Origin: Rhodobacteraceae bacterium MED-G08
GTDB lineage: Bacteria; Pseudomonadota; Alphaproteobacteria; Rhodobacterales; Rhodobacteraceae
Direction of reading: 5' to 3'
DNA: 64,000 bases
NCBI GenBank assembly: GCA_002457055.1
Contig: NTKT01000010.1
Location: forward strand, 1-64,000
Positions 5,463 to 10,830 of the stretch are shown here, piece after piece. Position 1 is the first letter of the stretch; every line of letters starts with the position of its first letter. Under the pieces are notes generated by a model. The model was not told the DNA's origin. It saw only the letters and a program-made list of their open reading frames with translations, and made no database searches. A program made the position numbers and the translations under genes.

Positions 5463-9691
<4,229 letters not shown>

Positions 9692-9713
9692 ATTATTTAA
9701 ATATTCCCCAAAT

Positions 9714-9728
9714 GTTCTTAAAAAGTTC
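9714..9728. promoter_or_regulatory. LexA-type SOS box (GTTC-N7-GTTC)
   Basis: GTTC-TTAAAAA-GTTC is an exact match to the direct-repeat LexA box of Alphaproteobacteria. It ends 56 bases upstream of the 40-residue ORF at 9785, in a 93-base AT-rich gap after recG. A degenerate relative, GAAC-N7-AAAC, occurs at 9757-9771. The exact spacing and the position just ahead of a small gene support a real operator. LexA itself is not encoded in the window. Confidence 0.6.
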
Positions 9729-9784
9729 TTTACATTTGAAACCTTTTGTGAAAAAAGAACAAAACATAAACAAAGGGTCTAATT

Positions 9785-9907
9785 ATGCGCACTGAACTTA
9801 AGAATATTTTATCAGGTAACGGGATTGGTTTTGTAAAAGACGCTATCGGTTGTGTTTCTTTGATTTTAATATTGTTTGCCGGGCTTCACTTACCATCATT
9901 CTATTAA
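9785..9907 (+). CDS. Small single-pass membrane protein (40 aa), probably SOS-controlled
   Basis: I do not recognise a named family. The ORF starts at ATG with AAGGG 8 bases upstream and ends at TAA. The N-terminal 19 residues are polar with basic residues (R2, K6, K18). Residues 21-36 are hydrophobic (CVSLILILFAGLHL in the middle), and the last four are PSFY. This is the shape of a small bitopic inner-membrane protein. The LexA-type box upstream suggests DNA-damage induction. SOS-induced division inhibitors such as Caulobacter SidA (29 residues, membrane) are similar in size and control, but homology is not claimed. It may be missed by length-limited gene callers. Confidence 0.6.
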   Translation: MRTELKNILSGNGIGFVKDAIGCVSLILILFAGLHLPSFY

Positions 9908-9935: not shown

Positions 9936-10397
9936 TTAGGATGTTTTTATAGGCTCCGGTTTATTTATTTCATCAATTGCATCTGCTATTGCATCAAAGG
10001 TTAAGAGAATAGATGAGTGTCTATTTTTAAAATCTTTCGCAGGTTGTAGCACTTCGAGCTCTTCAAAAGGTTTATTAGGGGAAGAACCATTTTTAGTTAG
10101 CATATCAATCAATTCTTCACGAGCAGTAAGTATTTGATCCACATCACTCCCAATAATTGATTTTGATATTACGCTTGCGGCTGCTTGGCCAAGTGCACAG
10201 GCTTTTACCTCATGTCCATAATCAACTACTTTGTTTTCATTTAGACATATATCTACTGTCACCATTGATCCACACATAGGAGATCGTTTTTTTACGGTGC
10301 TCTGAGGGTTATCCAACCTTTTTGTATGCTCAATGTCGGCTGCTAAGGCTAATATTCGCTTAGAATATAAATCGATTAGGTCGTTATTATTCGTCAT
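9936..10397 (-). CDS. IscU/NifU-N-like iron-sulfur scaffold family protein with altered cluster ligands
   Basis: The 153-residue protein has the IscU/NifU N-terminal fold, a family that assembles Fe-S clusters. Cys42 (PMCGSM) and Cys67 (KACALGQA) match two of the three ligand cysteines. The third, which is HCSIL in E. coli IscU, reads HSSIL here, so position 128 is Ser. The Asp that follows the first Cys in IscU (CGD) is Ser here (CGS). The protein may therefore not be a classical scaffold. It is divergent from hisI. No other isc or suf gene is in the window. Confidence 0.75.
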   Translation of the reverse strand: MTNNNDLIDLYSKRILALAADIEHTKRLDNPQSTVKKRSPMCGSMVTVDICLNENKVVDYGHEVKACALGQAAASVISKSIIGSDVDQILTAREELIDMLTKNGSSPNKPFEELEVLQPAKDFKNRHSSILLTFDAIADAIDEINKPEPIKTS

Positions 10398-10470: not shown

Positions 10471-10830
10471 ATGAAAATGAAATTTGAATTAAGCCAGCTA
10501 AAATTTAATGAAAAGGGGTTGATGCCTGCGATCACTCAAGATTTTGAATCTGGAACAGTTTTAATGCTGGCTTGGATGAATGTGGACTCCATCCGGCAGA
10601 CCCTAGAGACCAAGCGTGTTACTTATTGGTCTCGCTCTCGTAGTGCCCTGTGGGAGAAAGGGGCTACCTCTGGGCATACCCAAGAGTTAATAGAGCTTCG
10701 CTTTGATTGTGATAATGATGCAATTTTACTCCTGGTTAGGCAAAAAGGACCGGCATGTCACACAAACAGAACAAGCTGTTTTTTCAATAAATTAATTAAT
10801 GAAAATGAGACTGTTATATTAGAGCACTAG
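10471..10830 (+). CDS. hisI: Phosphoribosyl-AMP cyclohydrolase
   Basis: HisI opens the purine ring of phosphoribosyl-AMP in histidine biosynthesis. The 119-residue protein shows VLMLAWMN, the TYWSRSRSALWEKGATSGH signature and the zinc-binding DCDNDAILLLV and GPACHTNR motifs. This is the stand-alone HisI form without the HisE domain. ATG 10477 is an alternative start two codons in; neither has a strong ribosome binding site. It is convergent with gluQ. Confidence 0.93.
   Translation: MKMKFELSQLKFNEKGLMPAITQDFESGTVLMLAWMNVDSIRQTLETKRVTYWSRSRSALWEKGATSGHTQELIELRFDCDNDAILLLVRQKGPACHTNRTSCFFNKLINENETVILEH

Follow-up and report, generated by a model that had tools for sequence, protein, structure and literature searches.

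A conserved small gene behind recG under a LexA-type operator in Rhodobacteraceae: a putative membrane peptide and candidate SOS-induced division inhibitor

Small membrane proteins of the SOS response

The closest described counterpart of the small gene reported here is SidA of Caulobacter crescentus, which has been reported as an SOS inhibitor of the inner membrane, 29 aa long, that acts on FtsW (PMC4211646), in a bacterium with GTTCN7GTTC as the consensus of its LexA sites (PMC4211646, PMC12700426). From other phyla YneA, ChiZ, and SosA have been described as SOS or damage-induced membrane division inhibitors (PMC13396833). According to that report YneA acts on FtsW, binding of FtsW by ChiZ and SosA is predicted by low-confidence models, and inhibition of FtsW is suggested to be a common theme. 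Short hydrophobic peptides under LexA/SOS control have also been described in E. coli, namely, TisB and DinQ, and both come with antisense RNAs (PMC8145889, PMC3567139). In Rhodobacter sphaeroides, UdsC has been reported as a small RNA that is cut from the 3'UTR of the mRNA of a hypothetical protein (PMC9779115), and the LexA sites predicted in a study of D. shibae include those of lexA, recA, dprA, and others (PMC6473078). In the literature that we searched, the small gene behind recG is not described and nothing names a factor that halts cell division in Rhodobacteraceae once DNA is damaged.

Like SidA, the product of this gene is predicted to be a very small inner-membrane protein of an alphaproteobacterium, and it is found with a LexA-type site of the form GTTCN7GTTC (PMC4211646, PMC12700426). 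The two are likened by description only and not by sequence, SidA being reported with 29 aa (PMC4211646) and the Rhodobacteraceae peptide having 40 aa, and the place behind recG is particular to the family to which this locus belongs. YneA is described with an extracellular LysM domain (PMC13396833) whereas the Rhodobacteraceae peptide is predicted to have a short N-terminal helix and one membrane helix. TisB and DinQ are described with antisense RNAs (PMC8145889, PMC3567139) whereas what stands out here is the tight conservation of the peptide sequence from genus to genus. We considered whether UdsC might come from the locus described below and put the idea aside; it probably does not, and its host gene, RSP_7527, is reported to be RpoHII-dependent (PMC9779115).

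The LexA-type operator and its promoter

In the window, by which we mean the whole stretch of 64 kb (64,000 nucleotides) that was analysed, an exact GTTC-N7-GTTC, GTTCTTAAAAAGTTC, lies on the + strand at 9714..9728, where the preliminary description had placed it. An ATG at 9785, 56 bases past this box, opens a 40-codon ORF on the same strand whose stop ends at 9907 (9785..9907). A good ribosome binding site had also been claimed for this ATG; the start and the 40-codon frame hold, but the likely site, AAAGGG at 9772..9777 (+), is only moderately Shine-Dalgarno-like. An exact box alone is found at chance level both in the window and in the genome. The window has two against 1.56 expected, the other one (894-908) being within a 515-codon ORF, and the whole genome has 37 (16 + 21) compared to 71 (34 + 37) for the pattern read backwards. 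The box at 9714..9728 stands above chance because of the specificity of a matrix in the 64 kb and because both the box and the ORF are conserved in relatives.

The 21-bp matrix was made from the 38 lexA and recA boxes of Rhodobacteraceae, exact boxes only; such a box is in 25 of 25 lexA and 13 of 15 recA promoters examined from this family (38 of 40 in total). Its threshold of 16.6 bits is the 10th percentile of the leave-one-out scores. In the window this matrix reaches 12 bits or more at two sites only, 9711 (+, 19.3 bits) and 9754 (-, 15.1 bits), and both fall in the promoter of the small ORF, which with the site at 9711 holds an operator like those of lexA and recA of the same lineage. For comparison across genomes, 107 relatives that had been found by protein similarity alone were used, which are 30 loci from the first protein search, 2 from the class sample, 17 from the family sample (in which 213 genomes matched), and 58 of 60 further family rows, 2 of these rows being duplicates that were dropped. 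An exact GTTCN7GTTC is present within 220 bases upstream in 98 of the 107, while mononucleotide shuffles of the 107 promoters gave a mean of 0.6 and a maximum of 3. Scores of at least 16.6 bits were obtained with 85 of the 107 small-ORF promoters compared to none of 535 shuffles and none of 141 other stretches of the loci; 22 of the promoters score under the threshold. The operator is conserved beyond chance across relatives, as is expected of a member of a LexA regulon.

Eight of the nine relatives without the exact box are similar genomes of the window's genus (L015, L016, L017, L019, L021, L022, L025, and L026), and the ninth is L401, in whose promoter the lexA/recA matrix finds no LexA-like site. 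With the same matrix the site in the promoter of L406 is weak. At shifted sites seven of the eight same-genus genomes reach 12 bits and five reach 16.6 bits, and in most of the eight the shifted LexA-like site is between -35 and -10, as it is in lexA itself. Because of these shifted sites it appears that in the eight genomes the operator has turned over and control has been kept.

A logo of 96 promoters, from which 2 of the 98 box-bearing promoters were left out, gives the order GTTC-N7-GTTC, then TTTAC(A), then GAACA. The bases of TTTACA are each 70-98% conserved in it, and the eight same-genus genomes that lack the exact operator 1 have TTGACA in the same place. GAACA is at the expected distance in 96 of the 98 box-bearing promoters, the spacing from the second GTTC being 23 bases in 81 of the 96 and 28 in the window, and an additional, third GTTC further upstream is common among the 96. 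In the window TTTACA (9729..9734, +) abuts operator 1 and is probably the -35 element. Since a generic sigma-70 scan does not call TTTACA, and calls no + strand sigma-70 promoter at this locus, we infer its role from the logo of the relatives. Operator-like element 2 (9757..9771, - strand, 15.1 bits) reads GAACAAAACATAAAC on the + strand, that is, GAAC-N7-AAAC, and probably lies near the -10 region. Its second half is CAAC in 75 of the 96 promoters and GAAC in 4 of the 96; an exact GAACN7GAAC occurs in the loci of some relatives, and recA of the relative L082 has a similar GAAC-N7-AAAC. Since none of 106 element-2 sites reaches 16.6 bits with the lexA/recA matrix, we take element 2 only as a putative, weak second operator near the -10 region.

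The genome has one match to LexA (LexA_DNA_bind, E=5.2e-16) and one to RecA (E=3.1e-147), and exact boxes lie ahead of its own lexA and recA and of its genes for the Y-family (IMS) polymerase, an error-prone DNA polymerase, and a UvrD/PcrA helicase. Thirty-five exact boxes of this genome are outside the window; 6 of them avoid every open frame of at least 90 codons, and the remaining 29, among them the box of recA itself within a spurious frame, do not. Three other boxes are recorded here as side observations. The exact box of L293 (G000:C1:75576), GAACAAAACAAGAAC, is identical in its letters to the box of the IMS polymerase; it has a divergent aldo/keto reductase gene on one side and, on the other, a 203-aa ORF without a family match. 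That of L297 (G000:C4:15290) is 190 bases ahead of a 52-codon ORF that looks by eye like a small lipoprotein, and that of L303 (G000:C8:3768), about 100 bases ahead of a 2Fe-2S ferredoxin gene, may be there by chance.

Conservation of the gene, its neighbours, and its product

The protein search matched the ORF in 50 of 101 genomes, the genome itself included, at E<=1. A profile built from 28 rows (alignment A1, 28 of the 30 relatives, two near-identical ones being left out) matched, at E<=0.01, 213 of 248 family genomes and 212 of 247 genera, with one copy in nearly every genome. In the class-wide sample 26 of 385 genomes matched the profile at E<=0.1. Five of these belong to the window's family and have E<=4.5e-11; the other 21 belong to other families, have E>=0.0047, and are mostly short stretches in longer open frames, and we have taken them as noise. 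Strong matches in the 385 class genomes are confined to the family. The ORF had been assigned to roseobacters in the preliminary description and the gene is indeed present there, but it extends also to Rhodobacter and Paracoccus. A search of phages and plasmids with one family member (from L213) gave no match, and the promoter pattern given below had none in viral_contigs.

The promoter was also used alone as a query. Scanning the species genome contigs with GTTCN7GTTCTTTAC-N14-16-TGAGAACAA gave at least 118 loci, and among the matches listed the profile finds the ORF at E<=1e-3 within the 300 bases that follow in 114 of 118. The other four are L166 and L241, whose stretches end 72 and 33 bases past the pattern, and the Paracoccus loci L203 and L226, which have a diverged ORF (profile E=0.009 and 0.83). 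We take 113 of the 118 listed loci to be from Rhodobacteraceae/Rhodobacterales and 5 to be from unspecific Alphaproteobacteria or Pseudomonadota bins. In Paracoccus (L149, L203, L226) the whole promoter is kept, and the diverged ORF, which the profile hardly detects, ends in LWLPAILQA. The promoter-fetched and protein-fetched loci partly overlap (for example, L193 and L029) and are therefore not independent samples. The first 80 promoter-fetched loci, 79 after L166 was dropped, were used for the synteny, pN/pS, residue, and 3'UTR analyses, and the other 38 (L224-L261) entered only the test for the ORF.

The neighbour upstream of the box in the window is recG (7598..9691, +), named by eye and in the preliminary description, and recG is upstream in all 79 promoter-fetched loci analysed, as judged by a match to its C-terminal 230 residues. 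Downstream in the window are a convergent gene with a NifU_N domain, IscU-like (9936..10397, -; PF01592, E=7.8e-08), and then a hisI-like gene named by eye (10471..10830, +). A relative of the NifU_N gene is downstream on the opposite strand in 67 of the 79 loci, and a relative of hisI is present in 62 of the 79. The preliminary description had stated that lack of conservation of the ORF or box in relatives would speak against it; instead, both the ORF and the box are conserved. Its LexA/SOS half is strongly supported by the sequence, since the exact box is in 98 of 107 relatives and recG is upstream in 79 of 79 loci, and we consider it highly probable that the small ORF is repressed by LexA and induced in the SOS response. 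Its other half, a division inhibitor, is a conjecture that our computations leave as the best guess.

Twenty-three family genomes that had scored as lacking the ORF were queried for recG, and 15 further genomes without a match were left out of this check. The 23 gave 15 recG loci, the other 8 giving none or only helicase matches that were weaker. By eye, 10 of the 15 have a short hydrophobic ORF directly after recG and 5 have none; with the profile, 8 of these 10 ORFs give E<0.01, and at 8 of the 10 loci there is an exact box in one orientation or the other. Behind recG in L262, L266, L274, L275, and L276 there is an exact GAACN7GAAC with very diverged short hydrophobic ORFs. At such divergent recG loci regulation appears to outlast the protein sequence. 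Outside the family, 30 of 40 recG loci were used, two of them with less than 300 bases past recG. None of the 30 has an exact box after recG in the up to 450 bases searched, and 4 have short hydrophobic ORFs, none of them by eye like that of the window.

Among the 107 relatives the ORF is 40 aa long in 92, 38-42 aa in 14, and 60 aa in one. Over 144 sequences of 40 aa, 139 of them distinct, D19 and G22 are each conserved in 99%, L34 in 98%, P37 in 95%, and L26 in 93%. AlphaFold2 gives helices at residues 2-11 and 13-39 with a mean pLDDT of 79.5, and of 95 in residues 21-30; codons 13-39 (9821..9901, +), which include the conserved D19 and G22, would thus form the transmembrane helix. The hydrophobic segment that had been claimed earlier is real, since the best 19-residue Kyte-Doolittle window, which starts at residue 14, has a mean of 2.13 and the AlphaFold2 helix covers it. 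The product looks like a single-pass membrane peptide and by prediction it is, like SidA, a short single-pass protein of the inner membrane. Segments that flank a membrane helix and are rich in positive charge tend to stay inside, which is the positive-inside rule. The 144 sequences have a mean of 2.5 Lys and Arg in residues 1-18 compared to 0.0 in residues 20-40, and because these are confined to the N-terminal part the peptide is probably oriented with its N-terminus in and its C-terminus out. Over residues 19-37, conservation has a moment at 100 degrees that 69 of 5000 shuffles matched or exceeded. The result weakens when the end residues are taken away (20-36, 340 of 5000), and it is at most suggestive of a conserved helix face for binding.

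Close pairs show that the frame is under purifying selection, synonymous differences against non-synonymous ones being 16 against 5 in L208/L210 and 7 against 1 in L015/L016. The pooled pN/pS of 67 independent pairs, most of them near saturation and the distant ones saturated, is 0.78; pN is lower than pS in 49 of the 67 and equal or higher in 18. When 28 members were scanned against known families at E<=0.1, Pfam and PHROGs gave no match and NCBIfam gave three families with one member each (E 0.064-0.071), which is noise. The conserved ATGAGAAC might offer a second start codon, but we rejected this because the frame from it hits a stop or is out of phase in several relatives.

Proposed function and alternatives

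Based on the above we propose the following model. LexA would be bound at operator 1, where it would cover or adjoin the -35 region, and may occupy element 2 as well. Once RecA has triggered the self-cleavage of LexA the peptide would be made and would insert into the inner membrane with its N-terminus inside, where the helix positions D19, G22, A/S25, L26, L30, L34, and P37 would bind a membrane partner. The likeliest partner would be the FtsW/FtsI/FtsN septal cell-wall complex, and division would pause until repair is complete, as with SidA in Caulobacter. Division arrest is favoured because of the analogy with SidA and YneA as reported (PMC4211646, PMC13396833), and, exerted through the septal cell-wall complex, it is the most probable function, with about an even chance of being the right one. 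For the model as a whole, that is, a LexA-repressed SOS gene whose single-pass inner-membrane peptide has its partner in the septal complex and causes a SidA-like pause, we likewise see the chances as equally balanced.

In many relatives the stop codon is followed by the conserved, C-rich CTGCCTGCG, CCTGTCCC, and CTGCCTGTCCC and by a strong Rho-independent terminator; in L144-L222 this element is about 100-190 bases past the stop of the ORF (for example, L168:7147-7337). Of 105 relatives, 57 have TGCCTGC no further than about 57 bases past the stop, compared to 1.2 on average and 3 at most in shuffles. None of 13 genomes of the window's genus has it there, nor has the window, and the ORF is kept in all of these. 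In 39 selected loci the motifs are unpaired to 0.71 compared to 0.39 for the rest. These loci (alignment A2) were chosen, because the element is clearer in them, from 73 that have a terminator-like T run; conservation in the 39 is therefore biased upward, and the count of 57 of 105 is the less biased one. Consensus folding of the 3'UTR gave covariation at the terminator stem only, and Rfam gave, on 12 loci, six sub-threshold matches to Ysr141 only, none of which was accepted. The C-rich 3'UTR is a possible 3'UTR-derived small RNA and the main finding stands without need of it. If it is one, a single damage-induced transcript would have two products in many lineages, the septum-arresting peptide and a small RNA that pairs with the G-rich start regions of mRNAs and thereby silences them, and the AT-rich genus of the window would have retained the peptide alone; we hold this extended reading to be doubtful. 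That the transcript matters mainly as RNA, with the 3'UTR processed to a small RNA and the ORF secondary, is very unlikely. The conserved motifs and terminator after the stop and the more unpaired state of the motifs fit it, but the window and 13 of 13 genomes of its genus keep the ORF without TGCCTGC, and 92 of 107 ORFs are exactly 40 aa.

The remaining alternatives concern the peptide and its box. A chance box ahead of a chance ORF would agree with the number of exact boxes in the window and the genome, which is that expected by chance, but ORF, box, spacing, and synteny are all conserved, and we give this explanation next to no weight. The peptide could be an SOS toxin like TisB or DinQ that depolarises the inner membrane and slows growth with no specific partner. 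TisB is described as a 29-aa hydrophobic, LexA-controlled membrane peptide (PMC8145889) and DinQ as an SOS-regulated toxic peptide with a single transmembrane segment (PMC3567139), and in these respects they would resemble the product of this gene. However, the near-invariant D19, G22, L34, and P37 and the nearly fixed length suggest a partner and not an unspecific pore, and because of these features we favour a partner and regard a toxin of this kind as unlikely. If there is a partner it might lie outside the divisome, for example, an envelope protease, a transporter, a respiratory complex, or cell-envelope or gene-transfer-agent machinery. The regulatory and conservation evidence fits such a partner equally, the conserved residues suggest a specific partner without naming one, and R. 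capsulatus is reported to need LexA to make its gene transfer agent (PMC9638019). On the other hand, where the reports cited give the partner of a small membrane protein induced by SOS, that partner is FtsW or FtsN (PMC4211646, PMC13396833). Our computations link the peptide to no other system and likewise not to the divisome, and a partner outside the divisome is a possible but rather unlikely explanation.

The gene offers a candidate, usually in single copy, under a LexA-type box in most of the genera sampled, by which the question of how division is stopped after DNA damage in Rhodobacteraceae becomes directly testable. The small-protein family is new to Pfam, NCBIfam, and PHROGs as searched, and the D-x-x-G motif that opens its predicted membrane helix could point to a general target site.
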